Assembly (NCBI RefSeq): GCF_963682185.1
Contig: NZ_OY821667.1
Location: 3,919,501 to 3,983,500, forward strand
Origin: an uncultured Cohaesibacter sp.
Lineage (GTDB): Bacteria; Pseudomonadota; Alphaproteobacteria; Rhizobiales; Cohaesibacteraceae
Direction of reading: 5' to 3'
Length of the DNA: 64,000 bases
The notes beneath the pieces are model-generated. The model searched no databases, had not been told where the DNA came from, and saw only the letters and a program-made list of their open reading frames with translations. Shown piece by piece: positions 7,832-31,724 of this stretch (its first letter is position 1; every line of letters begins with the position of its first letter). Both the position numbers and the translations under genes were made by a program.

Positions 7832-8599
7832 TTAGGCCTGGTTCGCCCCATCGTCTGTTATTGACAGGTCAAGAAGTCGCCCTTCGAACAACCGGTCTCT
7901 GGAATGCTTGATATGTTGAAACATCAATTCCTTTGCCAGCTCAGGTTCTCTTCTCTTTATAGCATCGAATATGCCCAGATGCTCTTTGAAAACGCTTTCT
8001 AGACTGAAGACCGAATCGTCCAGAAGGGACTGACCATGCATGCGCATACCTGCGTGAATGTGGTCACGCAGTGCCCCCATGGATGCCTCAAAATAATGAT
8101 TATTGCAGGCTTTGGAAATAGCTACATGAAACGCATAGTCGGCATCTTCTTTGTGCACGTGATTGGTGGTTGCCGTTTCCATAAGACTGAGTGCAGACTG
8201 AATTTCTTGCAAAGATGAATCACTGCGTCGCATGCTTGCATTGTATGCGGCAATCGGCTCAAGCGACAGGCGGAATTCATAACAGCGTTGTATATCAGCG
8301 ATTGTTTCGATCTTGGAAAAACCGAGCGTTTGTTTCTGCCCAACTTTAACGAAACTTCCAGCCCCTTGACGAGAATAGATTAAGCCTTCTTCGCGCAGGC
8401 GATCGAGAGCTTCTCGTAGTACTGGGCGTGAAACACCAAATTCCTCGGTCATAACTGCTTCGGTAGGAAGCTTTTGGTTTTCAGTATATTCTCCGCTTGA
8501 AATTCTTGTATGTAATAAATTGTAAATGCGAGAGGATAGAGAATCGCGTGCCTTGCCTTTTCCTTTGAGTTCATCATTCTCTATGATTTGATCTTTCAT
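7832..8599 (-). CDS. GntR-family transcriptional regulator, FCD domain
   Basis: DNA-binding regulator of 255 residues. The winged helix-turn-helix is at about 20-85 (LPTEAVMTEEFGVSRPVLREALDRLREEGLIY), followed by an all-helical FCD ligand/metal domain at about 100-235 with FHVAISKACNNHYF, whose His is a usual metal ligand. FCD proteins usually sense sugar acids or other carboxylates and repress the adjacent uptake genes. It converges on the second TRAP operon and is the best candidate to control both TRAP sets and the lactonase. The start at 8599 is the natural ATG. Confidence 0.9.
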   Translation of the reverse strand: MKDQIIENDELKGKGKARDSLSSRIYNLLHTRISSGEYTENQKLPTEAVMTEEFGVSRPVLREALDRLREEGLIYSRQGAGSFVKVGQKQTLGFSKIETIADIQRCYEFRLSLEPIAAYNASMRRSDSSLQEIQSALSLMETATTNHVHKEDADYAFHVAISKACNNHYFEASMGALRDHIHAGMRMHGQSLLDDSVFSLESVFKEHLGIFDAIKRREPELAKELMFQHIKHSRDRLFEGRLLDLSITDDGANQA

Positions 8600-9162
8600 T
8601 AGTGTCGCCTTCAGTTACGTCCATTGGCCATGTGTTGCGACTTGGACGAGACTATTTGCCATCACTGTGTCTTTCTGGGGCGAAAAACTATCGGACAAAC
8701 GGAATTTTCTCGCTACTGAGTATTATGCGAAAACAGATGTAGCAAGCGAAAATGCCGATTTGGAAGTACGATTGTGAGGTCAGAGCTGTCAAATAGGCAC
8801 TTTTACCATAGAATTCAAATATTCGCTTTTGCGAGAACAGGTTTTTGCATAGGGCATCTGTATAATACCATTGACCTGATATATTGGATGCCTCTCTTCA
8901 ATCATCTTCTGGATATTGACATGGCGAGGTAGAGGTGGCTCGGGCATGTCCGTGATCAAAGAAAAAGGAACCAAGTTGGCTTAAAAATAAGGGAGACTTT
9001 GCGTTATCTGGTTATTGATATTATGCAGCGGCTTTGCGGTGAAGCACGCGTCTCGTTTCGAGTAATTGCTGTCGCCGGAGGGCTCGCTGGAGCAATGACC
9101 GTTCTGGCCGGGGTAGGGGCGTGGCGTTAACGTCTCTGAAGCAGGCAACGCGATGAGATCAG
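8600..9162. other. Intergenic region, no confident gene
   Basis: Upstream of the regulator gene. It should hold that gene's promoter, but no clear -35/-10 pair or operator was recognised. A 61-codon minus-strand frame (8974-8789) has a stretch faintly like the C-terminus of shikimate kinase (EERHPIYQ); this is too weak to call. Codon content and lack of start signals suggest non-coding or decayed DNA. Confidence 0.5.
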
Positions 9163-9775
9163 GTGTCCTTCGTCGCAACGCTTCAACACTATTTGATTAC
9201 GCTGTCGACGGGTACAGTCGTCGCGCGCGTGGTTGCTTCGCCAGATGCATGGCCGGTCCTTTCTGACATCGTTTGGTCTGGAATCTTGGCTGTCATGATT
9301 ATCGAAATGATTTTAGGATCAAAGCCGGCTCACGTGATGAGCGCAAGACATGCTGCTCAGTTGACCCTTTTGCTATTGCTTCTCGCAATCATCGAAAAAC
9401 GCGACGAAGATGATCGCCAAGCCTTTGCTGATGAACTGGGGGTGAAGCGAGAGGATCTCTATAGCGGGATCCCGAAGATCGAGCTTGAAGACGTGTGTGC
9501 GGCTATCGTCAAACGCAACGCTTCAACCCGAAATAGTCCGCCTTTATGCTTTGCTGAGCGACGAAGCGCTGCAGCCCAATCACCCCGTACATGACTATTT
9601 TGCCAAGCGAGAACAACAGGTGATCAATACCTTTAGTGAGATCAGCATGGCGCCTCAAGCACAAGGGCGCCTTCTGCTTTCGCTCATGGATGGTGTCCAA
9701 TTGAGGTGGCTGCGGGACATTGCAAATGTCGACCTGATTGCCGAATGGAAAGCTGCTTCTTCCTTTCTGTTTTGA
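9163..9775 (+). pseudogene. Frameshifted remnant of a TetR-family regulator
   Basis: Two overlapping frames together give a recognisable TetR-type C-terminal ligand domain. The first (9163-9594) contributes RDEDDRQAFADELGVKRE and EDVCAAIVKRNAS. The second (9485-9775) continues with PEIVRLYALLSDEALQP, HPVHDYFAKREQQV and the family-typical end LRDIANVDLIAEWKA. A single shift near 9515-9530 joins them. No intact helix-turn-helix is seen upstream, where the first frame instead reads a hydrophobic, unconvincing sequence. Most likely a decayed regulator that once served a neighbouring operon. A programmed frameshift is possible but there is no slippery site evident, and a sequencing error cannot be excluded. 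Confidence 0.55.
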
Positions 9776-10031
9776 AGTGATCAAATGGCCAGTCTCCGGC
9801 AGGAGCAATTCACCATTATATTTAACAGGCATGGGGTCGTTCGAGTATTCAACTTGTTCTTGCAGTAGGTGATGTCTCTATTGGGCATCTCGATGGATCA
9901 TGTGAGACGCTGCGTTGAATACTCGATACAAATCGCGACACGAGCATATAAGCGCACCTGCTTGCAAACCCGTGTCTTGCGTCTGAAACCAGTCAGCCTA
10001 GTCCTTGGGGAAAGATATTCACTTTGCCCGT

Positions 10032-10088
10032 TTGGCGCGTTGACTCTGTTTCAGTACAATCGGATGATCAGGAAAGGATTGTCTGATC
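10032..10088 (+). promoter_or_regulatory. Candidate promoter and inverted repeat upstream of dhaK
   Basis: A sigma70-like pair TTGGCG (10032-10037) - 17 bp - TACAAT (10055-10060) lies about 90 bp before dhaK. Just downstream is the inverted repeat GATCAG (10066-10071) / CTGATC (10083-10088), a possible operator. Intergenic bases 9776-10151 show no other recognisable feature apart from an 8-bp hairpin near 10094-10113. Confidence 0.35.
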
Positions 10089-10151
10089 CGAGAAGAGAGG
10101 GCTGTGCCCTCTTCGCGCCTGAGCCTCGGAAACATCCGATTGGGGGAAATC

Positions 10152-11219
10152 ATGAAAAAGCTAATCAACAACGCCGAAGATGTCATTGACGAGCAACTGA
10201 AGGGCCTTGCGAGTGCCCACGCGGAGCTTGATGTGCATTTTGATCCAAAATTTGTCTGTGTGGCAGAGGGTGTGAAGGATCGCGTCGCGATCGTGTCCGG
10301 TGGAGGAGCCGGCCATGAACCCTTGCATGCAGGGTATGTCGGCATGGGCATGCTAGACGCGGCCTGCCCCGGGCAGGTGTTCACCTCACCTACGCCCGAC
10401 CAGATGGTCGAAGCCTGCAAGGCGGTGAACGGCGGCAAGGGCATTCTTCAGATCGTGAAGAACTATACCGGCGACGTGATGAATTTCCAGATGGCAGCTG
10501 ATCTGCTCCGTGACGAGGGCATCGAGGTGCGCAATATCGTCATCGACGATGATGTCGCCTTGAAAGACTCGCTGTACACCGCAGGTCGCCGCGGTCTTGG
10601 AGCCACAGTGATCGCAGAGAAGGTCTGTGGGGCTGCCGCGCTGGAAGGCTATGATCTGGACCAACTTGCAGCTCTTTGCCGCAAGGTCAACACCTTCGGT
10701 AAGAGCATGGGCATGGCTCTTACCTCCTGCATGACACCCCAGAACGGCACGCCGAGTTTCGAGTTGCCAGAGGACGAAATGGAAATCGGCATCGGTATCC
10801 ATGGCGAACCCGGCACCGAGCGCGCAAAGATCAAGAGCGCGGACGAGGTGACGGAGATTCTGGCCAGCCGCATTCTTGAGGATGAGGCCTATACACGCTC
10901 CCTCAGCGAGTGGGATGCTGAGAGTGAATCCTGGGTCGATGTCGAGGTGACAGATATCTGCTTTGAGTCCGGCGACGAGGTTATCGCCATGGTCAACGGA
11001 ATGGGCGGAACGCCTTTGTCCGAACTCTACACCGTCTATGGCAAATTGGCAGAAGTGACTGAACGCCATGGCGTCAAGATCGTGCGCAATCTGGTCGGGA
11101 ACTATATCACTTCGCTTGAAATGGCTGGCATGTCGATCACTCTGGTCAAGGTTGATGAGGAAATCCTCCGGCTGTTCGATGCTCCGGTCAAGACACCTGC
11201 ACTGCGTTGGGGGATCTGA
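10152..11219 (+). CDS. dhaK: PTS-dependent dihydroxyacetone kinase, substrate-binding subunit DhaK
   Basis: DhaK covalently binds dihydroxyacetone as a hemiaminal and presents it to DhaL-ADP for phosphorylation to dihydroxyacetone phosphate; cytoplasmic. The 355 residues match the usual DhaK length. The [17 protein letters not shown] signature is near the N-terminus, and the substrate-binding histidine is His217 in GIGIHGEPG. The ATG at 10152 has GGGGGAAA upstream; the longer frame from 10104 lacks such a site. First gene of a dhaKLM operon; dhaL begins two bases after its stop. Confidence 0.96.
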
Positions 11220-11221
11220 AG

Positions 11222-11890
11222 ATGAATGATACTTCCTCTGGAACCGGGGTTATTACGGCCTCGGTGATTTGTACCTGGTTCGAGAAATCGGCTGAAGTCA
11301 TAGCGGACAATCGCGCCCATCTCACCGAGCTTGATGCGCCGATCGGGGATTCAGACCATGGCAACAACATGGATCGTGGCTATAAGGCAATTCTCGAGAA
11401 GCTTCCCCGGGTAGAGGATGGGGGTGGCGACATCGGTGCGATCTTCAAGCTCGTGGCGATGACGCTAATTTCCAAAGTTGGGGGGGCTTCTGGCCCCCTC
11501 TATGGAACCCTGTTTCTTGAAGGGGGAAAACCACTCTCTGGCAAGTCTGAGCTGACAGCCGAGGAGCTTGCCCGCTTCTTCGATGATGCCAGTGCTGGTG
11601 TCATCAAACGAGGCAGAGCAGAGGTCGGCATGAAAACGATGCTGGATTCGTTGGTGCCATCAGGCGAAGCCTTCAAGGCAGCGCTTTCTGCGGGCAATGA
11701 CATCCCATCAGCGCTTGCGGCTGCTGCCAATGCTGCGAGAGAAGGCATGGAGGCAACCATTCCGATGCTTGCCCAGAGAGGGCGCGCCAGCTATCTCGGC
11801 GAGCGTAGTATCGGGCATCAGGATCCCGGCGCCACGTCTTGGTATCTGATCCTGCAGGCTCTTGCTGATACAGTTGCCGAGGCATCCTGA
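11222..11890 (+). CDS. dhaL: Dihydroxyacetone kinase, ADP-binding subunit DhaL
   Basis: DhaL carries a permanently bound ADP that is recharged to ATP by phospho-DhaM and passes the phosphate to dihydroxyacetone on DhaK. It has 222 residues. The Mg-ADP-binding aspartates are in LDAPIGDSDHGNNMDRG, and KVGGASGPLYGTLF is the usual nucleotide-site motif. The ATG at 11222 is preceded by GGGGGAT inside the dhaK end; an in-frame TTG at 11207 overlapping dhaK is less likely. The stop overlaps the dhaM start (TGATG), so the two are translationally coupled. Confidence 0.95.
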   Translation: MNDTSSGTGVITASVICTWFEKSAEVIADNRAHLTELDAPIGDSDHGNNMDRGYKAILEKLPRVEDGGGDIGAIFKLVAMTLISKVGGASGPLYGTLFLEGGKPLSGKSELTAEELARFFDDASAGVIKRGRAEVGMKTMLDSLVPSGEAFKAALSAGNDIPSALAAAANAAREGMEATIPMLAQRGRASYLGERSIGHQDPGATSWYLILQALADTVAEAS

Positions 11891-14394
11891 TGATCGGTAT
11901 CGTCATCGTTTCGCACAGTCGCAAACTGTCCGACGGTCTCAAGGAAATCGCAGACGCGATGAGCGGGGCACCTGTGCCCATCGCGTCTGCTGGCGGCATT
12001 GATGATTCCGAAAATCCATTGGGTACCGACGGCATCCGTATTCTTGATGCTATCCGCGAGGTCATGTCCGACGAAGGAGTGCTCATCTTTGCTGATCTGG
12101 GGTCAGCCCGCCTGAACGCTGAAATGGCTCTTGATCTACTCGAGCCCGAAGAGCAGACAATGGTGCGTTTTTGCGATGCTCCGATTGTCGAGGGTGTCCT
12201 TGCTGCCACGGTCCAGATTGCGGCGGGGGGATCGATGCAGGAGGCGATGAAAGAAGCGCGCCAGTCCGTCCAGCTTGAGGCCGATGAGGAGCAGCCTGCG
12301 TCTGAACCATCAAATACCCTGTCGCGCAGTTTCACCATCAGGACCCTGTTGGGGCTGCATGCCCGTCCAGCTGCGCTGTTGGTAAGAAAGATGAATGCCT
12401 TTGCTGGCGATATCCGCATTGCCAATATCACAAAGGGCCGCAAAGCAGCCAATGCCAAAAGCATCAACGGCGTCATGCTCTCGGAAGTCACCGCAAATGA
12501 CACGATTTCGATTTCCACCGGTCCGGAACAGGCGGAGGCCGTCTTTGCTGCGGTTGAAGAGCTGGTCAAGGATAATTTCGGCGAGGAAGGCATGGCGCCT
12601 CCAAAGGCAGAACCGGCTTCTGTGCCCGAGCAGAAACAGTCTTCCACGCCCACTGGGGCAATCACACAAGGAGAATTGTCTGGTCTCTCGATTGCTCGTG
12701 GATTTGCAATCGGTCCGATCCATCATGTCGGAGGCGCTCTGCAAAGCGCCGAACCTGTCGCAATAGAGGATACCGGCGCTGAGATCGAACGATTTGTAAA
12801 GGCTCTCTCAGAAGCTGAGAACCAGATCCACCTGGCGATTTCGAATGCAGGAGATAGCATCAATGCCGATGATCGCAAGATCTTTGATGCCCATATAAGC
12901 TGTCTGCGAGACCCCGATCTAGTCTCCGCCGTCAAGACCAGAATTTCCAGCGAAGGCATCTGTGCCGAAGCGGTCTGGCGTGAGGAGATCATCAGGCTTT
13001 CCGGAATCTATTCCGCTCTTGATGATCGGTTGCTCAGAGAGCGGGCCGGGGACATAATTGATGTTGGTCGGCGGGTTCTTGCCATCCTTTATGGCAGCCA
13101 GAGCGATGACGGGCAGGTGACCGAGCCCGCAATCCTCGCCTATGAAGAATTGCGCCCCTCAGACATCCTGTCGCTTGATCACGGCGCAGTTCTTGGCATC
13201 TGCACCATGTTGGGTGGCGAAACGTCCCATGCTGCCATTCTCGCAAGTGCACTGGGAATTCCTGTTGTTTTTGCCCTTGGTGCCGATCTTGCCGGTGTGC
13301 CTGAAGGGCAACGGGCGCTGCTTGATGGAAGCGACGCACGGATCATTATTGACCCGGATGAGAAAACCATCGCTAGGGCAGAGCAGGAACGCAAGATCTT
13401 GAAAGACCGCCTTGCTCGCGCTGAAGAGGTCCGGCATCTGCCTGCCGAGATGCTTGATGGTCACAAGGTGCGTGCTGCGGCAAATATGGCATCCATCAGT
13501 GAGCTTGAAGGGATCACGGATAGCGGAGCCGAAGAAGTGGGGCTGCTGCGCACCGAATTTCTCTACATGCAACGCGACGTCGCGCCAGGGGAAGAAGAGC
13601 AGTATGATATCTATCGCTCGATCGTGACCGGACTTGCCGGGCGGCCCCTGACCATCCGCACTGCGGACATCGGGGGGGACAAGCCGGTCCCCTATCTTGA
13701 GCGTCCGACAGAGGATAACCCCAATCTCGGCTGGCGGGGCATACGCTACAGCCTTGCGATGCCAGATTTCTTCAAAACGCAACTTGCCGCCATTCTGCGT
13801 GCCAGTGCCCATGGTCCTGTGCGGATCATGTTCCCCCTTGTCAGCACGCTTGAGGAAGTGATGGCGGGCAAGGCTATGGTTCGGGACGTGATGGAGCTGT
13901 TGCGCGCGCGTGATCAGTCCTTTGACACCCATCTCGAAATCGGGTTGATGATCGAGGTTCCGGCAGCCGCTGACCTTGCAAGTCGGCTTGCGCGGGAGGT
14001 AGATTTCTTCAGCATCGGCACGAACGACCTGACCCAATATATGTTGGCTACGGATCGCGCGAACCCGAATGTCCGATCTCTTTATGATCCGCTTCACCCG
14101 GCTGTCCTGCATATGATAGCGAAGGTGATCAGGGCGGCTCACGATGAGGGCAAATGGGTCGGAATGTGCGGAGCTCTGGCTGGCGATACGGACGCTTTGC
14201 CACTGCTTGCAGGGCTAGGGCTTGACGAGTTCAGCATGCCGCCTTCTGGTATCGCCGAATTCAAGCTCGCGCTTTGTCAGCTACAGCTGCAGGATTGCCA
14301 GATGTTGGCAGAAACGGTCTTGCAATTGGACACAGCAAGCCGGGTCCGGGAACAGTTAAGCTTGTTCAGCAAGAGGCAACAGGCGCAGTCATAA
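11890..14394 (+). CDS. dhaM: Phosphoryl donor DhaM fused to HPr and full-length Enzyme I
   Basis: Multidomain phosphotransfer protein of 834 residues. Domains in order: EIIA-type DhaM (about 1-125, phosphohistidine His9 in VIVSHSRKL), HPr (about 145-235, His157 in GLHARPAALLV), then a complete PTS Enzyme I (about 260-834) with phosphohistidine His447 in GGETSHAAIL and the phosphoenolpyruvate-site Cys760 in GMCGALAGD. It takes phosphate from phosphoenolpyruvate and recharges the ADP on DhaL. In Escherichia coli the Enzyme I part of DhaM is truncated; here all Enzyme I regions are present, so the protein could run the whole relay alone. Third gene of dhaKLM, overlapping dhaL by one base. Confidence 0.94.
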   Translation: MIGIVIVSHSRKLSDGLKEIADAMSGAPVPIASAGGIDDSENPLGTDGIRILDAIREVMSDEGVLIFADLGSARLNAEMALDLLEPEEQTMVRFCDAPIVEGVLAATVQIAAGGSMQEAMKEARQSVQLEADEEQPASEPSNTLSRSFTIRTLLGLHARPAALLVRKMNAFAGDIRIANITKGRKAANAKSINGVMLSEVTANDTISISTGPEQAEAVFAAVEELVKDNFGEEGMAPPKAEPASVPEQKQSSTPTGAITQGELSGLSIARGFAIGPIHHVGGALQSAEPVAIEDTGAEIERFVKALSEAENQIHLAISNAGDSINADDRKIFDAHISCLRDPDLVSAVKTRISSEGICAEAVWREEIIRLSGIYSALDDRLLRERAGDIIDVGRRVLAILYGSQSDDGQVTEPAILAYEELRPSDILSLDHGAVLGICTMLGGETSHAAILASALGIPVVFALGADLAGVPEGQRALLDGSDARIIIDPDEKTIARAEQERKILKDRLARAEEVRHLPAEMLDGHKVRAAANMASISELEGITDSGAEEVGLLRTEFLYMQRDVAPGEEEQYDIYRSIVTGLAGRPLTIRTADIGGDKPVPYLERPTEDNPNLGWRGIRYSLAMPDFFKTQLAAILRASAHGPVRIMFPLVSTLEEVMAGKAMVRDVMELLRARDQSFDTHLEIGLMIEVPAAADLASRLAREVDFFSIGTNDLTQYMLATDRANPNVRSLYDPLHPAVLHMIAKVIRAAHDEGKWVGMCGALAGDTDALPLLAGLGLDEFSMPPSGIAEFKLALCQLQLQDCQMLAETVLQLDTASRVREQLSLFSKRQQAQS

Positions 14395-14563: not shown

Positions 14564-15730
14564 TTATATGCCCAGTGCAGCTTTGACTTCGTTGATGCGC
14601 GTGCGGCTCACAGGAGCTGAAGACAGGGAAGTGATACCCTCGAAAATGCATTTCCCATTGTCTTTGCTGCGGGTAAAGCCTTTGACCTGACGAATATTGA
14701 CGATGAACGAGCGGTGGGTCTGAATGAAGTGGTCTGGTAATTGCTCGCGCGCTTCAGAAATAGACCATGAGCAGAAGTGCTTGCCGCTGCCTGTATGCAG
14801 CACGGTGTAACGCCCTTCGGCCTGAAAAGCGGCAACTTCTTCGGGCAAGATGAATTCTATCTGTCTGTTCTTGCGCTCAATCGGTATGCGGACAGGGTCT
14901 TTTCTGGTTGCGACAGGCGGCTGGCTGGGAGCGTCGTCCACCTTTGCCTGTTCGATTGCTGCCTCAGCGATCTGTGCTGCTGAGGGAGAGGAGGCTTCTG
15001 GCGTTGTAACGGGGTGGTCATGAGCTGGCACAAGAAATGTCGTTGCTGTGAACAGAAAGGCACCGCAGATAATGAAGGTGGCGAAAATCACCAGCAAGGC
15101 TAACGAACCATGGTCAATTGCCATGCTTATCGGCTCGTTGACCGGCAACACCGCAAAGCCTGTCCAGTAAATGCCTGCATAATGGATCAGTGACACGGAC
15201 ACGCCAAAAATGAATGTACCCAGAATGATGTTTCTTCTGGTTCTTTGCTTATAGGCGAGCCAGACCGCCAGAAAGCCCGTTGCCGGGCCGATGATGATGA
15301 TGACAGTCTGTCCCAAATAGTCAAAAACAGGGATACAGCCCTGAATACCCAATAGACCGACATAATGCATCGTGACGATGCCATAGCCAAGAAAGCAGCC
15401 GGCGATAATCGTATTGAGAAGACTGCGGCGAGCGAAATGCATGATGAGCAGTGCCGTGCCCGTCATCAGAATGGCAATGAGAATGGAGCTCAGTGTCCAT
15501 GGTGCATCGTAAGAAGTGGATACCGGCAATTCGAGCGCCAGAATCGCGACAAAATGCATTGACCAGATGCCACCGCCAAAGACAACAGCGGCCATTCCGA
15601 TCGACAGCTTTCGCTTGTTGATGGACAATTCCGAAATGCCATTTGTTACCGCAAAACCGGTAAAGGCTGCCAGTACCGACACCACGATAGAGGCAATCAC
15701 CAACGGCAGATTGTAGGAATAGGTTATCAT
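14564..15730 (-). CDS. Membrane MHYT-domain sensor with LytTR DNA-binding domain
   Basis: Transcription regulator of 388 residues from the ATG at 15730 (GGAGC 11 nt upstream); an in-frame GTG at 15808 lacks a ribosome site. The N-terminal part has about seven membrane helices with the three MHYT repeats (WSMHFVAI, VTMHYVGLL, SLIHYAGIYW). The His/Met residues of these repeats are proposed to bind copper and sense O2, CO or NO. The C-terminal about 100 residues are a LytTR DNA-binding domain (THRSFIVNIRQVKGF). The same MHYT-LytTR layout occurs in CoxC and CoxH of Oligotropha carboxidovorans, next to aerobic CO dehydrogenase genes. Divergent from the hypA-coo operon, it is the obvious candidate CO or redox regulator here. 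Its role is inference; the domain call is firm. Confidence 0.9.
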   Translation of the reverse strand: MITYSYNLPLVIASIVVSVLAAFTGFAVTNGISELSINKRKLSIGMAAVVFGGGIWSMHFVAILALELPVSTSYDAPWTLSSILIAILMTGTALLIMHFARRSLLNTIIAGCFLGYGIVTMHYVGLLGIQGCIPVFDYLGQTVIIIIGPATGFLAVWLAYKQRTRRNIILGTFIFGVSVSLIHYAGIYWTGFAVLPVNEPISMAIDHGSLALLVIFATFIICGAFLFTATTFLVPAHDHPVTTPEASSPSAAQIAEAAIEQAKVDDAPSQPPVATRKDPVRIPIERKNRQIEFILPEEVAAFQAEGRYTVLHTGSGKHFCSWSISEAREQLPDHFIQTHRSFIVNIRQVKGFTRSKDNGKCIFEGITSLSSAPVSRTRINEVKAALGI

Positions 15731-16130
15731 CCGCTCTAGTGCTCCGATGGTCACGTTTCTGCCTGTGAAACCGAACAGGTCCAAGGCTCGCGCACCATTT
15801 CCTTTCACAACAGTCTTAAATGGTCAACGGCATGTGCCCGACCATCGCTCCTTCCTCTCGAACAAGCCCGCAGACACTTTAGAATGAATCACGACATTAG
15901 TGAGTTGCTGGCAGCAAACATTGCTCTCCGTCAAAATGCGGTGCCAGAATGCCGCTGTGATGAAAATACCGACCAGAGTTTTCCTGAGTTGGCAGGCTCG
16001 CAAAACGAGATTTTTCAAATTTCACCCGTACTGATAGCAAATTTCGCTTTTTGCAGGGCTCCAAATAGAGACTGTTGCTACTCCTTCGTCCGCAGCACCA
16101 CGATTCTAAAAAATGCATGAAAAATGAACC

Positions 16131-16173
16131 GTTTTTCGTGCGCATTTCGTGCGGGCAAATTCGCATTTCGTGC
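16131..16173 (+). promoter_or_regulatory. Direct repeats, candidate LytTR-regulator operator
   Basis: The 11-mer GCATTTCGTGC occurs twice exactly (16142-16152 and 16163-16173), 21 bp apart, i.e. two helical turns. A third 9/11 copy (GTTTTTCGTGC) lies directly before the first (16131-16141). LytTR-type regulators such as AgrA read short direct repeats spaced this way. The repeats lie between the divergent MHYT-LytTR gene and hypA, about 160 bp before hypA. Binding by that protein is inference. Confidence 0.55.
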
Positions 16174-16198
16174 ATGGCCATCGCCTCCGAGCGGTCGA

Positions 16199-16212
16199 TT
16201 GATCCAAATCAT
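16199..16212 (+). promoter_or_regulatory. FNR/FixK-like box upstream of hypA
   Basis: TTGATCCAAATCAT matches the FNR/FixK consensus TTGAT-N4-ATCAA at nine of ten conserved positions. It is 120 bp upstream of hypA and 26 bp after the direct repeats. Such a site would tie the oxygen-sensitive CO dehydrogenase/hydrogenase operon to low oxygen. No good -10 could be fixed at the expected distance. Confidence 0.5.
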
Positions 16213-16331
16213 CAACGCAGATCCGGCTTATCGACAGTGTCTGCTTTGCCGGAAAGACCCCCGCAGCCTTTAACATGATCACGACCACGATCGGGCCGGG
16301 CTGGCAAGAAAGGACCAGGTGACTTGTCGTC

Positions 16332-16718
16332 ATGCACGAAGCAAGCATCGCGATGAGCATCTTGCGCATCGCAGTTACAGCAATGGAGGACCAGCACGAT
16401 GCTGAAGTGGATCTTATCAGAATTTCGATTGGCAAGTTGAAAGCGATCGAGCCCGAGTTGCTTGTCCATTCCTTCTCCGCTCTGTCCAAGGGAACGGTTT
16501 GCGAGAAGGCTCGGTTGGACTATCGCGAAATCCCGGTGACAGTGCGCTGCCACTCTTGTGAAGCGATCAGTGAAATCCAGCGCTTTCGCTTTCACTGTGC
16601 TGAATGCGGAGGGACCGACCTGGAAATCCTGACAGGACGGGAACTCAGGGTCGAGAAGATTTTAGCCATGCCCGTCCTGACACGGGGCCTTTCAAAACAT
16701 GTCTGTAGCTCATGCTAG
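16332..16718 (+). CDS. hypA: Hydrogenase nickel incorporation protein HypA
   Basis: Nickel metallochaperone of 128 residues that with HypB delivers Ni to the large subunit of [NiFe] hydrogenase. The N-terminal nickel site MHE is intact (MHEASIAMSI), and the structural zinc motif is two CxxC pairs (CHSC and CAEC). The ATG at 16332 is fixed by the required MHE terminus. It is the first gene of the long coo-hyp operon and cooF begins 14 bases after its stop. The 520 bp before it hold the divergent regulator's promoter, direct repeats and FNR-like box. Confidence 0.95.
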   Translation: MHEASIAMSILRIAVTAMEDQHDAEVDLIRISIGKLKAIEPELLVHSFSALSKGTVCEKARLDYREIPVTVRCHSCEAISEIQRFRFHCAECGGTDLEILTGRELRVEKILAMPVLTRGLSKHVCSSC

Positions 16719-16731
16719 AGAAAGCCGAACT

Positions 16732-17307
16732 ATGAGATCAAAAACACCAAACAAGATCATTTATGTGGACCCGCAAAAATGCCTCGGATGCCACAGTTGT
16801 GAATTTTCCTGTGCCATGGCGCACAGTGCCTCGACATCCATGTTCGATGTAGAAGCGATGAAAGATGCTGTCAGCCGCACTCATGTGGTGCGGGTGGATG
16901 ACATCAATGTGCCCATGCAATGCCGCCATTGCGAAGATGCGCCCTGTACGAAAGTGTGCCCGACTGGCGCGTTGCGTCAGGCAGAGGGGCAAGGGTCCGT
17001 TTCCATCAACGAGCAAAGCTGTATCGGCTGCAAACTGTGTTCCATGGTTTGTCCATTCGGAGTGATTTCGGTTGTTGCCCGTCCTGACCAGCAGGCCAAC
17101 GCCACCAGCAACAATGCAATCGCAACCAAATGCGACCTTTGCGAAGAATGGCGAGCACAGAATGGCGAAACCGAGACCGCTTGCGAGAAGGCTTGTCCCA
17201 CGGATGCCATCAAGCTTGTGGACCTCTACGAGTATCGCAACGCCCTGACCAGAGCCCGCGCAGCGGAAGTTGCCAAGGCTCACAAATCCATCCAGTTCTC
17301 TTTCTGA
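16732..17307 (+). CDS. cooF: CO dehydrogenase iron-sulfur electron-transfer subunit CooF
   Basis: Ferredoxin-like protein with four [4Fe-4S] motifs that takes electrons from CooS and passes them to the CooLXUH hydrogenase at the inner face of the membrane. It has 191 residues, essentially the length of Rhodospirillum rubrum CooF. Cysteine clusters in order: CLGCHSCEFSC, CRHCEDAPCTKVCP, CIGCKLCSMVCP and CDLC...CEKACP. The start was set at the ATG at 16732 (MRSKTPNKIIYVD); an ATG at 16699 overlapping hypA would add eleven atypical residues. A short coupled gene separates it from cooS. Confidence 0.95.
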   Translation: MRSKTPNKIIYVDPQKCLGCHSCEFSCAMAHSASTSMFDVEAMKDAVSRTHVVRVDDINVPMQCRHCEDAPCTKVCPTGALRQAEGQGSVSINEQSCIGCKLCSMVCPFGVISVVARPDQQANATSNNAIATKCDLCEEWRAQNGETETACEKACPTDAIKLVDLYEYRNALTRARAAEVAKAHKSIQFSF

Positions 17308-17329: not shown

Positions 17330-17545
17330 GTGACCGACAAATCTGACAGGGCCAATCCCACACAGCCGCCATTATGGGGGCCGGGAAGTTCCAGGCCAGA
17401 ACCGACGCTTGGGGCATGTGCAAGATGCTCTGGCATCTCCAAACTCCTATCCGAACTGGATCCGACCAACAGGCAAGCAGCCTCCTGCGAGGGATGCAAT
17501 CCTCTTGCCCAGACCCTTCGTTCCACGCAACGGGAAGACACATAA
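17330..17545 (+). CDS. Small double-CxxC protein between cooF and cooS
   Basis: Unrecognised 71-residue protein read from a GTG at 17330 (GGAA about 8 nt upstream), ending in a TAA one base before the cooS ATG, which suggests translational coupling. It has two CxxC pairs (CARC at 30-33 and CEGC at 53-56), which could hold a zinc ion or an iron-sulfur cluster, and a proline-rich N-terminus. In R. rubrum cooF and cooS are directly adjacent, so this is an insertion into the canonical order. A role in electron transfer or metal delivery to CooS is inference. It could also be just a leader with chance coding character; the tight fit and paired motifs argue otherwise. Confidence 0.5.
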   Translation: MTDKSDRANPTQPPLWGPGSSRPEPTLGACARCSGISKLLSELDPTNRQAASCEGCNPLAQTLRSTQREDT

Positions 17546-17546
17546 A

Positions 17547-19460
17547 ATGGACCAAAGAGTAAAAACCACCGACGCACCTGTCGCCGACATGATTACCCGG
17601 GCCGAAGCGCAAAATATCGAGACCGCCTATGATCGCTATCAGACGCAACAGCCACAGTGCGGATTCGGTACGCTTGGGCTATGTTGCCGCTTCTGCTGGA
17701 AAGGCCCTTGCCGGATTGATCCTTTTGGCAAAGGCCCGCAGCGCGGCATATGCGGCGCAGACCAGCACACGATTGTTGCCCGTCAACTGGCTCGCATGAT
17801 GGCAGCCGGTGCCAGTGCACACTCCGACCATGGTCGCCACATCCTGCATGCTCTGCGCAAGCTCGCCGATGGTGAAATCACCGACATGTATGAAATCAAG
17901 GATGAAGCGAAGCTCATTGCCACAGCCAAGCGCATGGGCATCAAGACCGATGATCGCGCCGTCATGGATGTCGCCAGGGATTTGGTCAAGTCGTCCTATG
18001 ATGACTTCGGCAATCAGGACGAAGACCGCGTAATGAGCTGGCTGAAGGTCTCTCTGCCGCAAAAACGCATTGATCTATTCAAGAAACTGGATGTACTCGC
18101 CCCCAACATCGACATGGCTATCGCCCAGACGGTATCGCGCACCAATGTGGGGTGTGATGCTGATCCGGCCAACATTATTCTGGGTGGCATTCGTGCTGCA
18201 ATCACCGACTTTGACGGTATGGTGCTGGCAACGGAACTCTCCGACATCCTGTTTGGCACCCCCAGCCCGGTTGTGAGTGAAGCTGATCTTGGCGTCATCA
18301 ACGAAAATGCCGTCAATATCGCGGTCAATGGACACAACCCGCTCGTTGCCGAGGCTGTCTGCGCGGTTGCCGCTCAGATGCAGGATCAGGCCAAGGCGCT
18401 TGGGGCCAAGGATGGCATCAACATCGTCGGCGTCTGCTGCACCGGCAACGAAGCGATGTTGCGTCACGGAGTGCCGATGGCTGCCAACTATCTCAGTCAG
18501 GAAATGGTGATGGTTACCGGCGCAATCGACGCGATGGTCGTCGACGTGCAGTGCATCATGCCAGGCATCGTGACCGTCGCTGACAACTTCCATACCGTTG
18601 TTATCACCACCCATGACGAGAACAAGATCCCGGGGGCCGTCCATAAGAGCGTGCATCCCGAGAATGCTCGCGCCGCAGCAGAGGATATCGTCAAGACCGC
18701 ACTTGAGGCCTATACCCGGCGCAATCCGGCCAATGTGTTGATACCCGAAGGCAAGGAAACCTGCATTGTCGGTTTCTCTACCGAGTCCATCGTTGAGGTT
18801 CTTCAGCGCATTAACGCGGAAGATCCGTTGAAGCCTCTGATCGATGCCATCGTGTCCGGCCAGATCAAGGGTGTCGCCCTCTTTGCGGGATGCAACACGA
18901 CCCAGATCGATCAGGACCGCAACTTCAAGGCCCTCGGTCGCGAATTGGCCAAGAAAGACGTGTTGCTGCTTGCCACCGGTTGCGGGGCAGGCGCGTTCGC
19001 CAAGGATGGCCTGATGACGCAGGAAGCGGTTGAAAAATTCGCAGGCCCCGGCCTCAAGTCTGTTCTCACAACCCTTGGAGAAGCCGCCGGTCTCAATGGC
19101 CCGCTGCCACTGGTTTTCCATATGGGATCCTGTGTTGACAACAGCCGCGCTGTAATGGTCGCCACCGCTCTGGCAGAAAAACTGGGCGTTGACCTGTCTG
19201 ACCTGCCGGTCGTTGCCAGTGCTCCGGAAGCCATGGCCGAGAAAGCCGTTGCCATCGGCAGCTGGTCTGTTGCTCTGGGCTTCCCAACCCATCTGGGCAA
19301 TATCCCGCAGATCATGGGCTCCGACCAGGTTGTTAAACTGGTCACCGAGACCAGCAAGGAACTGTTTGGTGGCTACTTCGTGGTGGATCCCGATCCAGAA
19401 AGCGCCGCCGAAACCCTCTATGAGGCCATTCTCGAGCGACGCAAGGCTTTGGGACTCTAA
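17547..19460 (+). CDS. cooS: Anaerobic Ni-Fe-S carbon monoxide dehydrogenase CooS
   Basis: Catalyses CO + H2O to CO2 + 2 e- + 2 H+ at the [NiFe4S] C-cluster. It has 637 residues from the ATG at 17547 (GGGAAG upstream); longer in-frame starts run through the preceding small gene. The D- and B-cluster cysteines are all present: Cys38 and Cys46 bridge the dimer D-cluster, and Cys47, Cys50, Cys55 and Cys69 ligate the B-cluster, matching the R. rubrum spacing with a three-residue offset. C-cluster region motifs such as FAGCNTTQIDQD, LATGCGAGAF and FHMGSCVDNSRA are intact. It is a monofunctional CODH, with no acetyl-CoA synthase genes nearby. Electrons go to CooF. Confidence 0.97.
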   Translation: MDQRVKTTDAPVADMITRAEAQNIETAYDRYQTQQPQCGFGTLGLCCRFCWKGPCRIDPFGKGPQRGICGADQHTIVARQLARMMAAGASAHSDHGRHILHALRKLADGEITDMYEIKDEAKLIATAKRMGIKTDDRAVMDVARDLVKSSYDDFGNQDEDRVMSWLKVSLPQKRIDLFKKLDVLAPNIDMAIAQTVSRTNVGCDADPANIILGGIRAAITDFDGMVLATELSDILFGTPSPVVSEADLGVINENAVNIAVNGHNPLVAEAVCAVAAQMQDQAKALGAKDGINIVGVCCTGNEAMLRHGVPMAANYLSQEMVMVTGAIDAMVVDVQCIMPGIVTVADNFHTVVITTHDENKIPGAVHKSVHPENARAAAEDIVKTALEAYTRRNPANVLIPEGKETCIVGFSTESIVEVLQRINAEDPLKPLIDAIVSGQIKGVALFAGCNTTQIDQDRNFKALGRELAKKDVLLLATGCGAGAFAKDGLMTQEAVEKFAGPGLKSVLTTLGEAAGLNGPLPLVFHMGSCVDNSRAVMVATALAEKLGVDLSDLPVVASAPEAMAEKAVAIGSWSVALGFPTHLGNIPQIMGSDQVVKLVTETSKELFGGYFVVDPDPESAAETLYEAILERRKALGL

Positions 19461-19583: not shown

Positions 19584-20363
19584 ATGAAAATCGCGATTGC
19601 AGGCAAGGGGGGAGTGGGCAAAACGACCCTCACCAGCTTACTCGCCCGGTCTTTCTCCGCCGATGGCATTCGGGTTCTGGCAATTGATGCCGACCCGGAC
19701 GCCAATCTTGCCGGTGCAATCGGCATCGATGCAAATGTGCGCGAGACACTGGTGCCATTAGCGGACATGAAGGATTTGGCGGCTGAGCGAACCGGCCATG
19801 GCAGCGGCTTTGGCGGCTTTTTCAAGCTCAACCCGACCGTTGATGACTTGCCGGAAGAATTGTCGGTGAAATTCGAGGGCATCCGCGTGCTCTCCCTTGG
19901 CTTTATTCAGCACGGTGGCTCTGGCTGCGTCTGCCCGCAGCACACCATACTTCGCGCCCTTATGAGCCATATCCTGCTCAAGGAAGATGATGTCGTCCTG
20001 ATGGATATGGATGCGGGTGTTGAGCATCTGGGACGAGGAACCTCGGAAGCGGTGGATCTGCTGATCGTTGTCGTTGAACCGGGGCGCAGAAGCCTGGAAA
20101 CGGCGGCGCAAATCGAGCGCTTGGCGGCAGATCTCGGCATCGCAAAGATCGCCTATGTCGGCTCGAAGATCCGTGATGATGATGACCTCGATTTTCTCAC
20201 CAAGGCGCTTGAGAACAAGAATTTTCTTGGAGCCTTGCGGTTGAGCGAAGCCATCCGGGATGCCGATCGCAATGATCGCGCGCCTTTTGACCAAACCGGT
20301 GCTCCACTGGCCGAAATTCAATCGATCCGCGAACGCATAGAAGAACTCACGGCCGATGCGTGA
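19584..20363 (+). CDS. cooC: CO dehydrogenase nickel-insertion ATPase CooC
   Basis: MinD/ArsA-type ATPase that loads nickel into the CooS C-cluster. It has 259 residues. The deviant Walker A motif is at the N-terminus (AGKGGVGKTT), and the metal-binding CxC pair is Cys115 and Cys117 in GGSGCVCPQH, which bridges the dimer. DADPDANL is the switch region. The ATG at 19584 gives the standard MKIAIAGKGGVGK start. It is followed by cooT and cooJ as in R. rubrum, so the accessory set cooCTJ is complete. Confidence 0.96.
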   Translation: MKIAIAGKGGVGKTTLTSLLARSFSADGIRVLAIDADPDANLAGAIGIDANVRETLVPLADMKDLAAERTGHGSGFGGFFKLNPTVDDLPEELSVKFEGIRVLSLGFIQHGGSGCVCPQHTILRALMSHILLKEDDVVLMDMDAGVEHLGRGTSEAVDLLIVVVEPGRRSLETAAQIERLAADLGIAKIAYVGSKIRDDDDLDFLTKALENKNFLGALRLSEAIRDADRNDRAPFDQTGAPLAEIQSIRERIEELTADA

Positions 20364-20380: not shown

Positions 20381-20596
20381 ATGTGCCTGATGAAACTTGA
20401 ATATACCCCCGAAGATGGAAATGCCATTCGCATCGAAAATGTCTTTAACGTCCGGACCACAGACGAGGGGCTTGTCGTTGAAACCCTGCTTGATGGTAGA
20501 CATATATTGCCCGCCTTCAAACTGGTCGCTCTGGATTGTTCGCAAGGCTGGATCAGAGTTTCTCCCGCGATGGCAGGAGAATTGGCACATGTGTGA
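20381..20596 (+). CDS. cooT: Nickel-binding CODH accessory protein CooT
   Basis: Small SH3-like nickel-binding protein of 71 residues, involved in nickel supply to CooS. The conserved Cys2, which ligates nickel in the R. rubrum dimer, is present (MCLMKLEYT). The start is fixed by that MC terminus, with AGGATACAG upstream. It lies 17 bases after cooC, and its end overlaps the cooJ start by eight bases. Identification rests on size, the MC start and its place between cooC and cooJ. Confidence 0.85.
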   Translation: MCLMKLEYTPEDGNAIRIENVFNVRTTDEGLVVETLLDGRHILPAFKLVALDCSQGWIRVSPAMAGELAHV

Positions 20597-20954
20597 CCAC
20601 GACCATGACCATAACCATGTCAATGGCTGCCACCATCAACACCCCGATGGCCATTCTCACGCCTCTCAGCAGTCGCACGATGACGCTTCGACAGAGGGAG
20701 CGGCTCAACCCGCTCCTTTGGACTTTCACCGCGCGGGCGCACTGGTTAGCCATTGGGCGATCCATCTGGAACAGCATGCGGGCGAAATAGAGCAAGTGTT
20801 GTTAGTGGCGCAAGGGGGCGACCGGTCTGTTTGGAACCGTTTGAAGGATGCCCAAATGAAAATGCTGGAAGCCTCAACTCTTCTGCAGCAAGCAGCAGAT
20901 CAGCTTACCTCCGACACGGATCTGCCTTCAGGGCCGGTCCATAATCATCGATAA
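20589..20954 (+). CDS. cooJ: Histidine-rich nickel chaperone CooJ, permuted layout
   Basis: Nickel-binding protein of 121 residues. The first about 30 residues are His/Asp-rich (MCDHDHDHNHVNGC and HHQHPDGHSH). Residues from about 50 to 110 are helical, with the high-affinity nickel motif HWxxHxxxH seen as HWAIHLEQH. In R. rubrum CooJ the His-rich segment is C-terminal, so the order of the two nickel-binding parts is reversed here; only a PVHNHR tail remains at the C-terminus. The ATG at 20589 overlaps the end of cooT. Confidence in CooJ identity comes from the nickel motif plus position. Confidence 0.82.
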   Translation: MCDHDHDHNHVNGCHHQHPDGHSHASQQSHDDASTEGAAQPAPLDFHRAGALVSHWAIHLEQHAGEIEQVLLVAQGGDRSVWNRLKDAQMKMLEASTLLQQAADQLTSDTDLPSGPVHNHR

Positions 20955-20969
20955 TCGGGGAGAGCGACC

Positions 20970-21731
20970 ATGTGCGGAAATTGCGGCTGCAGCCATCATG
21001 ACCATCCTCATCATCACGGTGGCCATCACCATCATCATGCCGATCATATAGTGGAGCCGGTGCTGGAAGTTGACGTTTTGGAAGACATTCTGGCAGGCAA
21101 TGATCAGATTGCTCTGGAAATTCGAGACGCACTCGCCGAAAGGGGCCTTTTGGGGCTCAATCTCATGTCGTCACCCGGTTCGGGCAAGACACGATTGCTC
21201 GAAGAGACCGCCGAGCGGATAGGCGCCAGTGCAATGGCGGTAATCGAAGGCGATCTGGAAACAGAAAATGACGCCAATCGCATTCGGGCCCGCGGCGTTC
21301 CTGCCTTTCAGATTTCAACCGGTTCAGCCTGTCATCTGGATGCGTCAATGGTCGCGCATGGCCTCGACCATCTTCAATGGCAGATGACCGATTATCTCTT
21401 CATCGAGAATGTTGGCAATCTGATCTGTCCGGCAACATTTGATCTCGGCCAGCATCGCAATGTGGTGCTGCTGTCCGTTACGGAAGGCGCGGACAAAGCG
21501 GAAAAATACCCTGTCATGTTTCGCGCCGCCGACTGTGTGCTGATCACAAAGGCTGACTTGCTGCCGGTGATCGAGGAGTTCGATCTTGAGGACGCCAAAC
21601 GGTCCATTCGGCAGGTCAACCCCGACGCTCCGATCATCACATTATCCAGTAAGTCCGGTGAGGGGGTCCAATCCTGGCTCGACTGGCTCGCAAGCCAATT
21701 GGCATCCACGATCAGAAAGACGAGTGACTAA
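20970..21731 (+). CDS. hypB: Hydrogenase nickel incorporation GTPase HypB
   Basis: SIMIBI-class GTPase of 253 residues that with HypA inserts nickel into the hydrogenase large subunit. It has an N-terminal CGNCGC high-affinity metal motif, then a histidine-rich stretch (about residues 8-30) for nickel storage. The P-loop is SSPGSGKT and the base-specificity motif is TKADL. Metal-site residues CHLDASMV of the G domain are intact. The gene follows cooJ by 15 bases and precedes cooM by two, which is unusual: hypB is embedded inside the coo genes, physically linking CODH and hydrogenase maturation. Confidence 0.96.
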   Translation: MCGNCGCSHHDHPHHHGGHHHHHADHIVEPVLEVDVLEDILAGNDQIALEIRDALAERGLLGLNLMSSPGSGKTRLLEETAERIGASAMAVIEGDLETENDANRIRARGVPAFQISTGSACHLDASMVAHGLDHLQWQMTDYLFIENVGNLICPATFDLGQHRNVVLLSVTEGADKAEKYPVMFRAADCVLITKADLLPVIEEFDLEDAKRSIRQVNPDAPIITLSSKSGEGVQSWLDWLASQLASTIRKTSD

Positions 21732-21733
21732 AG

Positions 21734-24700
21734 ATGCACACTCCTGAAATGTTAGTTTATCAGCCGTGGCTTGCCTATCTTGGTACTGCACTGCTGTTGG
21801 CGGGGGAATTGTTTGCCCTGTTGTACTGGCGCGATTTGAAGCGCGTCCTGTTCCTCTCGACCATTGCCGAGATAGGTTTCGCTCTCATCGGGTTTGCTCT
21901 TGCCGGCACCGGACCTCTGGCTGGTGGCATGCATATTGTCTATCAGCTCGTCATGCGGCTCCTGGTCATTCTGGCGGCAGGCCAGCTGGCATCTCGATCC
22001 GGTGGATGGCGCTGCGACACGCTTCGCGGCAGCGGGCGAGCCATGCCATTTTTCGGGATTTCTCTGGCTTTCGGTCTGTTTTCCCTGCTTGGACTCTCGC
22101 CCTTCAAGGGGGCTATGAGCCGGTTTCTTGTGGTTTACGAACTGGTGGGCGAAGACCTTTGGTTTCTCGCAGGCGCGGCCACATTGGCCAGTATCATTGC
22201 GGGGATCTATTCGATCCGCATCATTCAGGAGATCTGCTTTGCGCAGCCAGAGCAAGTTGAAACCTTGCCTCAATCCACACAGGCTTCTGCTCATAGTGAT
22301 TTTTCCTTCACCTCTCCGGTGAGCTGGTTCCTCATGCTGCTGTGCCTCTTGACGGCGCTGATGAATTTCTTTCCCGAACCGGTTGCCCATGTGGCCAAGT
22401 TGTTGTTCGGGCTGCATTCCGAGTTGCCGCATATTGAGGGGCCATGGCCGATGCTGTCGGTGCCGCCCTATGTCGGCGCCTTCGGTCTGCTCCTGATCGG
22501 CCTCTTCTCCGAGCGTCTGCGCAATGGGGCCGCGATCCTTCTTGCTGCGGCGACACTCGGGACAATTGTGCTGTCTGGCGGCCATGATCCGGTTTCCTAC
22601 CTGTTTGCCCTGTTGTTTGCAGTCGTGATGCTGGCTGTCACGGTCTATTCCGTTGCCTATATGGATCACGAGCGCGACAGAAACGCCTACTATTTCTTCC
22701 TCTTCCTGATGTCGGGCAGCCTGATCGGCCTTGCCATGGCCGAAGATATTGGTTCCTTCTACATGTTCTGGGAGCTGATGACCTGGTCAAGCTATCTGCT
22801 GATCGTCCAACCGCGCACGCGCGAGGCGCTCCTTGCCGGTGAGCGCTATTTTGTCATGTGTCTTGGCGGTGCCTATGTCATGCTGCTGGGGCTGATCTGG
22901 TTGGCCAGAGAGGTTGGCGGTTTCGACTTCTCCATCGTATACGCCCATGCCACTTCGCTTGAACCGATCACGGCAACCCTCATCGGCCTGTTGCTCTTTG
23001 TCGGCTTCGCGGTCAAGGCTGGCGTGGTGCCTCTGCATAGCTGGCTTCCTGTGGCGCATCCGGCCGCGCCATCGCCCGTTTCCGCGCCACTGTCCTCCAT
23101 TCTCACCAAGGCAGGACTTCTGGGAACCATCAAGTTGATTATTTTGGGACTGGCTCTTGTGAACCTTCACAGCCTGTCCATGGCGATCGTGGCACTCGGC
23201 ATCCTGTCGTTGCTATATGGGGAGATCATGGCGTGGCGGCAGTCTGACCTGAAGCGGATGCTGGCCTATTCAACCATCGCACAGGTTGGAGAGATCGTGG
23301 CTCTGGTCGGTTTGGCAACCACTCTGTCAACAACCGCCGGACTGACGCATATTCTGACCCATGGCATGATGAAGACGCTGTTGTTCCTTGGCGCGGGCGC
23401 ATTTATCTATCGTGCCGGATCACGCCAGATTGCAGATCTCGCCGGGATCGGCCGTGCCATGCCTGTCACCGCCTTGGCCTTTACCCTTGGCCTATTGGCG
23501 ATCATGGGGTTGCCGCCTTTTGCCGGATTTTACAGCAAGTTTCTGATGATCCATGCCAGCATTTCAGCTGGAATGCCTGCTGTCGCAGCTGCCTTGCTTG
23601 TGGGTGGTGTGATCGGAGTGCTTTACTATGGTCGCCTGATCAGGGTTATCCTTTTCGATCCAGCTTCCCAGAGCAGCGCATCTGGTACGCCCGCACCCTT
23701 GTTGATGCAATTGCCACTTGCTGCGTTGGCTCTTTTACTGCTCGCGGGCGGATTGATGCCTGATACGTTGCTTTCTCTGGCGGCGCAGGCAGGCCAGCGT
23801 ATCGCCGAAATTTTGGATGTTACTCCGGCCGCTGGCGATGCGCTGGGTGCGATCACCTTGCATGTCACTTGGCCATCGGCTGCGATTGCCTGCGCAATTG
23901 GTGCCGTGCTGACCTATCTCTGCCGTGGCAATCTTCGTCCCTTCGCGGCTCCTGTCGCCATCCTGACGCTGATTGTCGCCGGATTTCTTCTGTATGGCGA
24001 GCGCAGTATGTTCGAGCCGTTGACGCTGGCCTTTGCCTCGATTGTGCTGGGATTGGGCCTGCTCAACATTCTCTACACCGTGGGCTACTTTGCCCATCAC
24101 GGACATAGGATGGAACGGTTCCTTGCCAGCTTCATTCTCATGATCGGCGGTCTTGTGGGAATTGCCCGTGCCGATGATCTGTTCAGTTTCTTTTTCTTCT
24201 GGGAAATTATGAGCAGCTGGGCGCTCTATTTCGCCATCACCCACGAGGAAACCGCCGAGGCCTTGAGAGAGGGGTTCAAATACTTCCTGTTCAACATGAT
24301 CGGGGCGAGCTTCCTGTTCTTCGGTGTGGCAACACTCGCGGTGGGCGCCAAGTCCCTCTCGTTTGATGCAGTCCGGGTCGCAGCCCAAACCATGCCACTT
24401 TGGACCCTTGGTCTCGGCCTTGGTTCGGCCTTGCTCGGCTTTGCCATGAAGGCCGCGATGCTAACCGTGCGGGTTGATTATCAGATGCATCCGGCCACAG
24501 CGCCGACGCCTGTCTCTGGCTATATTTCGGCTGTGCTGCTCAAGAGCGGTCCGGTCTTTGCCTTCAAATTCCTGATGCTGATGGGTCTTGGTGTTCTTGC
24601 CAGCCGCTTCGGTCTGCTTGCCCGCATCGAGCCGTTTAACTACGCGCTCGTGCTGATCGGGGCAACGACAGCCCTCTATGCGGGGCTGATGGCTGTCATC

Positions 24701-26499: not shown

Positions 26500-26509
26500 A
26501 GGTGTATGA

Positions 26510-26944
26510 ATGTTTAAGTCCCTTACCCCCTCTGCCGCCCGGTCGCCGTGGCTCTACCGCATCAATGCGGGGTCTTGCAACGGCTGCGATGTGGAACTGG
26601 CAACAACCGCGCTCATTCCCCGCTACGACGTTGAGCGATTGGGCTGCAAATATTGTGGCAGCCCGAAACATGCCGACATCGTGCTGATCACCGGGCTGAT
26701 GACCAAACCGCTCTATGACAAGGTTATGCGTCTTTATTCCGAGGTACCCGATCCTAAGGTAACCGTCGCTGTTGGCATCTGTCCGGTCAGTGGCTGTGTC
26801 TATGCAGACAGCTATCAGGTGGTCGGCCCCGTCGATAAGCACATCCCCATTGATGTCAATATTCTGGGCTGCCCACCCCGACCACAGGCCATCATCGCCG
26901 GACTGGCAGATGCGATCACTCTCTGGAAGGAGCGGATCTCATGA
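26510..26944 (+). CDS. cooL: CO-induced hydrogenase small subunit CooL (NuoB-like)
   Basis: [NiFe] hydrogenase small subunit of 144 residues, carrying the proximal [4Fe-4S] cluster next to the CooH active site. Cluster cysteines are in GSCNGCDVE, GICPVSGCVY and LGCPPRPQA. The short, single-cluster form is typical of energy-converting (Ech-type) hydrogenases and complex I NuoB. It begins ten bases after cooK and overlaps cooX by ATGA. Confidence 0.96.
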   Translation: MFKSLTPSAARSPWLYRINAGSCNGCDVELATTALIPRYDVERLGCKYCGSPKHADIVLITGLMTKPLYDKVMRLYSEVPDPKVTVAVGICPVSGCVYADSYQVVGPVDKHIPIDVNILGCPPRPQAIIAGLADAITLWKERIS

Positions 26945-31723: not shown

Positions 31724-31724
31724 G

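Follow-up and report, generated by a model that had tools for sequence, protein, structure and literature searches.

Which protein controls the genes for oxygen-sensitive, hydrogen-producing CO oxidation in this marine Cohaesibacter? The window, by which we mean the whole stretch of 64,000 nucleotides analysed, contains an R. rubrum-type cluster in the order hypA-cooFSC-T/J-like-hypB-cooMKLXUH-hypFCDE, divergent from a gene for an MHYT-LytTR protein. In R. rubrum the CODH genes are directly succeeded by cooA (PMC4257681), in the window by hypB. The genes of the cluster are as follows.

16332-16718, plus strand: hypA (PF01155)
16699-17307, plus strand: cooF, ferredoxin-like (4Fe-4S families), named by its position beside cooS
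17409-19460, plus strand: cooS, the Ni-CODH (TIGR01702, 733.7 bits against a cut-off of 478)
19584-20363, plus strand: cooC (P-loop ATPase families), named by position
20381-20596, plus strand: cooT-like gene, 71 amino acids (PF10133, 20.2 bits, below the cut-off of 27)
20589-20954, plus strand: cooJ-like His-rich open reading frame, 121 amino acids, named by composition and position only, with no family matched
20970-21731, plus strand: hypB (TIGR00073)
21734-29107, plus strand: cooM, K, L, X, U and H, an Ech-type hydrogenase, with subunit names from family and order
29399-34185, plus strand: hypF, hypC, hypD and hypE (family matches)

Apart from cooS, the individual coo names rest on family plus position. 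The nearest solved structure to CooS is 1jqk (851 bits), the R. rubrum enzyme, and the coo operon that CooA regulates in Rhodospirillum rubrum is of the same type as the one in the window. The hyp genes are followed by genes for a periplasmic binding protein and a FecCD permease (34868-37106). Relatives of these two proteins (33% and 42% identity) adjoin an MHYT-LytTR gene without coxL in Shimia abyssi (L123). On the other side of the cluster, the upstream neighbours at 10104-14394 are dihydroxyacetone kinase genes (Dak1, Dak2) and a multi-domain PTS phosphotransferase (EIIA-man, HPr, PEP-utilisers).

The divergent gene has two possible starts.

14564-15808, minus strand: MHYT-LytTR one-component membrane regulator (Pfam domains), longest open reading frame, GTG start, 414 amino acids
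15730, minus strand: probable true start of the regulator, an ATG

The ATG is probably the start used because the nearest relatives begin to align from about residue 21-27. The intergenic region between the regulator and hypA, which ends at 16331, is accordingly 523 or 601 bp long. The reading frame is intact. Pfam places an N-terminal MHYT domain in two stretches (PF03707, 5.1e-22) before a C-terminal LytTR domain (PF04397, 1.1e-17), both above cut-off, and detects neither a PAS (haem) domain ahead of LytTR nor the Crp/FNR fold with haem effector domain by which CooA is recognized. The sequence-only reading, in which a membrane MHYT-LytTR gene diverges from hypA-cooF-cooS, is thus confirmed by the open reading frame, Pfam and the gene layout. 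A Kyte-Doolittle profile gave six peaks above threshold, where a CoxC-type protein has seven transmembrane segments. No relative was returned by a PDB search with the regulator protein (E up to 0.01) or by a PADLOC search.

The only MHYT-LytTR protein that we found characterised in the open-licence literature is CoxC of Afipia carboxidovorans OM5, which answers CO with copper required and with O2 competing (PMC11347149). CO releases the DNA binding of CoxC, which was tested on PcoxB; the published operator before coxB is TTNNNGCN with 18-21 bp gaps, and CoxC and RcoM sites are both described with three repeats (PMC11347149). The window regulator and CoxC have the same domain order, a similar size (402 amino acids for CoxC), MHYT motifs, a LytTR output and a direct-repeat operator, which is a candidate in the window. 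Their identity is 29.7% over the matched part. CoxC governs an aerobic Mo-CODH, whereas the window regulator sits at a Ni-CODH and has fewer methionines in its MHYT motifs.

These motifs were compared in an alignment of 102 proteins including the one from the window, which was also used for the tree; two broken or short frame reads (L089, L146) were excluded. All three motif histidines are retained in the window regulator, in the motifs MHF, MHY and IHY. The second-Met columns read I89, L152 and I213, making it the sole protein of the 102 without Met at all three. Met is kept among the 101 relatives in 95 at column 89, in 99 at column 152 and in 53 at column 213, and the first of these, in motif 1, is also missing in the three cox-linked Cohaesibacteraceae relatives. 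Only 2 of the 6 motif methionines are present in the window regulator, against 3 to 6 in the others. These losses may matter because CoxC requires copper to answer CO and O2 competes; judged from the alignment, CO or copper binding may be altered. Within LytTR, R333 replaces a His that is kept in 99 of the 101 relatives. Both changes count against the main reading given below.

The genome, one contig of 5.39 Mb, was searched for other CO regulators. Searches for cNMP-binding domains gave 8 matches and those for Crp-type HTH domains 19, eight of them above the HTH cut-off, and five proteins had both domains. Three further HTH matches just above the cut-off (L189-L191, 28.5-29.3 bits) are partial, and three proteins have a cNMP match only; the PDB comparison covered the five two-domain proteins. 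The best matches were FixK2 for two of the five (L007, L008), an FNR-type protein for one (L009) and Crp/FNR-family proteins for the others (L010, L011). CooA entries were matched by L011 alone, at 25.7 and 22.2 bits against 73.6 bits for its best match, 3d0s. No CooA was found in the 5.39 Mb by these searches and comparisons. At an E value of 0.001 or better, the sole other LytTR protein of the genome is a response regulator with a receiver domain, and therefore no RcoM was found; an MHYT domain was found in no protein of the genome besides the regulator. That the window lacks cooA, as had been noted from the sequence alone, holds for the whole genome as far as tested, the five candidates resembling FixK2, FNR or Crp. 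The same reading had named a cooA or rcoM gene elsewhere, with a matching site at the coo promoter, as the finding that would speak against it, and the genome-wide search found neither gene.

Between the two divergent genes we found the following elements.

16135-16141, plus strand: extra half-site TTCGTGC, preceding the tandem pair by 11 bp (repeat family, spacing 11 and 21)
16146-16173, plus strand: candidate operator TTCGTGC-N14-TTCGTGC, period 21, repeats starting at 16146 and 16167, facing the coo genes
16199-16212, plus strand: weak FNR-like box TTGATCCAAATCAT, 1 mismatch, between the candidate operator and hypA

The repeats read CGTTTTTCGTGC at 16130 and CGCATTTCGTGC at 16141 and again at 16162, and the tandem pair starts 186 bp before hypA. 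The 5.39 Mb genome contains a single exact match to TTCGTGC-N12-15-TTCGTGC, in this intergenic region, and a reversed control pattern occurs 0 times. In 2000 two-base-block shuffles of the region the best had 2 mismatches (11 shuffles), against 0 in the real sequence. FNR-like boxes number 4 in the 64 kb against 3.4 expected; the one here is suggestive at most. A search of 15700-16400 gave neither a sigma-70 promoter nor a terminator.

The search for this operator was based on TTCNNGC, the RcoM form quoted in PMC11347149, and on conservation across loci. The published OM5-type operator, written as TTNNNGC triples 18-22 bp start to start, had given no match, OM5 itself included; the published OM5 motifs are about 26-29 bp apart start to start, as counted by eye. 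A scan for the CooA box was also set aside, with 67 places in 64 kb at up to 2 mismatches against 53.7 expected. The intergenic region holds no such box with at most 1 mismatch and one with 2, at 15950.

The survey covered 103 loci, namely 102 MHYT-LytTR loci plus OM5. In 78 of the 103, the MHYT-LytTR gene is directly followed by a tandem with at most 2 of 14 mismatches; the reverse strand shows such a tandem in 1 of 103, and the sequences shuffled once each in 0 of 103. Exact TTCGTGC is found downstream of the gene in 61/103 (9/103 on the other strand) and before the gene in 2/103; control stretches taken 2.5 kb further along have it in 3/97. The 8-mers of TCGCATTTCGTG are among the commonest downstream of the gene across the 103 loci, beside 8-mers that look like coding sequence. 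A following frame of at least 240 amino acids, presumably coxM by the annotation of OM5, was found in 77 tandem loci; the median distance from the second repeat to its start is 106 bp. The tandem points toward the gene downstream of the regulator in the relatives and toward coo in the window. The consensus of 54 period-20 loci, made from non-identical operator stretches only, is TCGCA-n-TTCGTGCAG...TTCGCATTTCGTG; the window reads GCATTTCGTGCGGGCAAATTCGCATTTCGTGC there and has the stretch TTCGCATTTCGTG to the letter. The pair also agrees with the RcoM consensus TTCNNGCA quoted in PMC11347149. The published CoxC operator lies upstream of coxB with wider spacing and consists of three direct repeats, whereas the window has two full copies of TTCGTGC at period 21 plus the half-site; it has no third repeat spaced at period 20-22, and in the relatives such a repeat is mildly enriched at most. 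A point against the operator is that the two nearest relatives (L084 with L178; L094) have cox loci without a clear TTCGTGC tandem; in L178/L084 this applies to the stretch before coxM. The cox locus of G426 does carry the tandem. Another LytTR protein could be what reads the tandem in cox loci.

How unusual is the pairing with coo? The class draw gave some match to the regulator in 86 of 385 genomes, many of them to the MHYT or LytTR part alone. We took the loci of the 13 best MHYT-LytTR matches from these 86, of the 9 best besides this genome from the 60 matching genomes of the order draw, and of the best 80 of 581 relatives in the genome collection. The counts over 102 or 103 loci retain three same-genome pairs with identical proteins (L091/L137, L092/L152, L090/L151); L086 was excluded from the MHYT counts, having been fetched for cooS, and L196, on the same contig as L094, was not counted. 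Among these best-match loci, coxL is carried by 91 of 102 and cooS by 0 of 102 (tblastn in the fetched flanks). The sequence-only reading knew of no MHYT-LytTR regulator tied to a Ni-CODH. A position near cox is usual in the family without defining it structurally, and the window regulator, beside cooFS, departs from this usage.

For the class-draw loci, coxL lies within about 9 kb in 12 of 13, and the contig of the thirteenth (G007) ends 827 bp past the gene. Eleven loci are without coxL (L047, L089, L103-L106, L111, L123, L149, L157, L163), several of them short or ending nearby. With flanks of about 9-10 kb to either side and no coxL in them, L089, L104-L106 and L123 look like real exceptions; the MHYT-LytTR genes of L104, L105 and L106, from position 10001 onward, are from Roseovarius, with long flanks and coxL not nearby.

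A cooS above the family cut-off was found in 1 of 385 genomes in the class draw, 1 of 297 in the order draw and 3 of 398 in the phylum draw, this genome being among them each time. Ten other genomes of the same genus in the order draw gave no cooS match. The regulator occurs in 3 of 18 genomes of the genus; the other two are cox-linked, and linkage to coo is seen in one genome only. In a tree made by a quick method, the window protein is sister to two cox-linked Cohaesibacter regulators (SH-aLRT 100), and G426, of the same family and cox-linked, joins next (SH-aLRT 97). In one genome of the genus (G636, L178/L084) the regulator gene lies about 5.5 kb after coxL, at the downstream end of the cox cluster, and the upstream genes, judged by eye, resemble those for a LysR-type regulator and for sugar-phosphate enzymes.

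The phylum draw yielded two further cooS loci, and in both of them cooF is divergent from a gene for a PAS-LytTR protein of the RcoM type (L181:11495-12247 and L182:6730-7701). Inspection by eye of the gap in L181 shows, on the cooF strand, TTCGTGCG and TTCGTGAA at a spacing of 20 bp; L182 is less clear. Rubrivivax gelatinosus CBS likewise has RcoM in its coo cluster (PMC4257681). RcoM resembles the window regulator in its LytTR output, in its divergence from cooF in L181 and L182 and in the TTCGTG tandem of L181, whereas its sensor is a PAS domain and that of the window regulator a membrane MHYT domain. CooA, a Crp/FNR-type haem protein, was not found in the window genome.

We give our main reading a probability of roughly 0.74. 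A CoxC-family regulator of the otherwise cox-linked Cohaesibacteraceae stock has probably been put in charge of an R. rubrum-type coo operon, replacing CooA, with CO altering its binding and inducing coo. The conserved tandem, found also in loci of the cox-linked relatives, links the regulator to the coo promoter. Together with the lack of any cooA or rcoM found, this supports the suggestion made from the sequence that an MHYT-LytTR protein stands in for CooA at a Ni-CODH/Ech-type operon. CO would reach the membrane MHYT sensor, the LytTR domain would bind the TTCGTGC tandem, and CO would change its hold on the repeats; hypA-cooFS and the downstream hydrogenase genes would then be induced. The FNR-like box at 16199-16212 may, on slender grounds, add anaerobic control. 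CO as the signal, the binding of the repeats and the direction of control are inferred by analogy with CoxC (PMC11347149) and RcoM. As for direction, we slightly favour release of repression by CO, as for CoxC, at about even odds, while CO-dependent activation as in RcoM appears plausible but rather less probable.

Three other explanations were weighed against this reading. The regulator may act on coo through the tandem while its MHYT domain no longer reads CO, serving instead as an O2/redox or copper sensor that would keep the O2-sensitive Ni-CODH off in air. We regard this as unlikely: it would fit the loss of Met at all three second-Met columns, the competition of O2 with CO at CoxC (PMC11347149) and the nearby FNR-like box, which weakly suggests that oxygen matters at the coo promoter, but all three motif histidines are retained, the motif-1 Met is missing in the three cox-linked Cohaesibacteraceae relatives as well, the operon uses CO as its substrate, and the near kin are mostly found in loci for CO oxidation. 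Alternatively, the gene could be a leftover of a lost cox cluster, beside coo by chance, with coo under FNR/FixK control only. No form-I aerobic CO dehydrogenase was found in the genome, the best match to the CoxL model scoring 110 bits against a cut-off of 991; FixK2- and FNR-like proteins exist in it, an FNR-like box lies at 16199, and 80 Ni-CODH/ECH genomes lack a known CO regulator beside the locus (PMC13077300). This is nevertheless very unlikely in our view, as the single exact tandem of the genome sits in the coo promoter and points to coo, the reading frame is intact, and no cox gene was seen among the window neighbours examined.

Least probable, and hardly to be credited, is control of coo by an unrecognised CooA- or RcoM-like protein elsewhere, with the MHYT-LytTR protein regulating itself or other targets. 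The candidate site is in a divergent region common to both genes, so autoregulation is possible, and the Crp-like L011 has weak CooA matches. Yet L011 fits 3d0s far better (73.6 against 25.7 bits), the intergenic region has one CooA box at 2 mismatches and none closer, the one other LytTR protein found has a receiver domain, and the relatives have their tandem downstream of the regulator gene, not upstream.

Returning to the CoxC-family regulator as the proposed successor of CooA, an MHYT sensor seems to have taken the place of haem-PAS or CooA on a common LytTR operator, since the other two cooS loci have PAS-LytTR proteins, one with the same tandem. A bolder form of this idea, which we hold tentatively and at slightly under even odds, is that RcoM and CoxC have one operator code (tandem TTCGTGC, period 20-21), so that a membrane copper/gas sensor from the aerobic CO pathway could capture an anaerobic Ni-CODH/Ech operon in a single step; its MHYT metal site, alone in having lost all the second methionines, would since have been retuned for anoxic CO sensing. 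If so, coo operons would have a fourth regulator class in addition to CooA, RcoM and CorQR, the three named for Ni-CODH/ECH in PMC13077300, where MHYT is not mentioned in the main text. CooA is mentioned in PMC6344411 and PMC13240472, neither of which contains the word MHYT. Among the open-licence papers listed, we found none that ties MHYT to Ni-CODH, and MHYT together with CooA, RcoM or CO dehydrogenase only in PMC11347149.

At the level of sequence, the pairing of a CoxC-family regulator with a Ni-CODH/hydrogenase operon is real and well supported in one genome, and we found no earlier description of it. The locus offers a concrete candidate regulator class with a candidate binding site, and the control circuit is directly testable because the promoter carries matching candidate sites. 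It suggests that the LytTR regulators of CO pathways may have one operator code, letting sensors swap between aerobic and anaerobic CO oxidation.

Some minor observations were made on the way. The cooS of G414 (L086) from the order draw was set aside as a comparison, since it scores below the family cut-off and, at 32% identity, belongs to a distant type; at 8071-10815 it forms a cooC-cooS pair, with no relatives of the hydrogenase genes in its 19.9 kb. Plasmids gave two distant CooS matches (E up to 1e-25). In OM5, the gap between coxC and coxM on pHCG3 (L174:15166-15212) reads TTCGTGCA, and weaker copies can be made out by eye at +20 and +40. These repeats are a candidate for a second CoxC/CoxH operator, located before coxM and additional to the one published for coxB.
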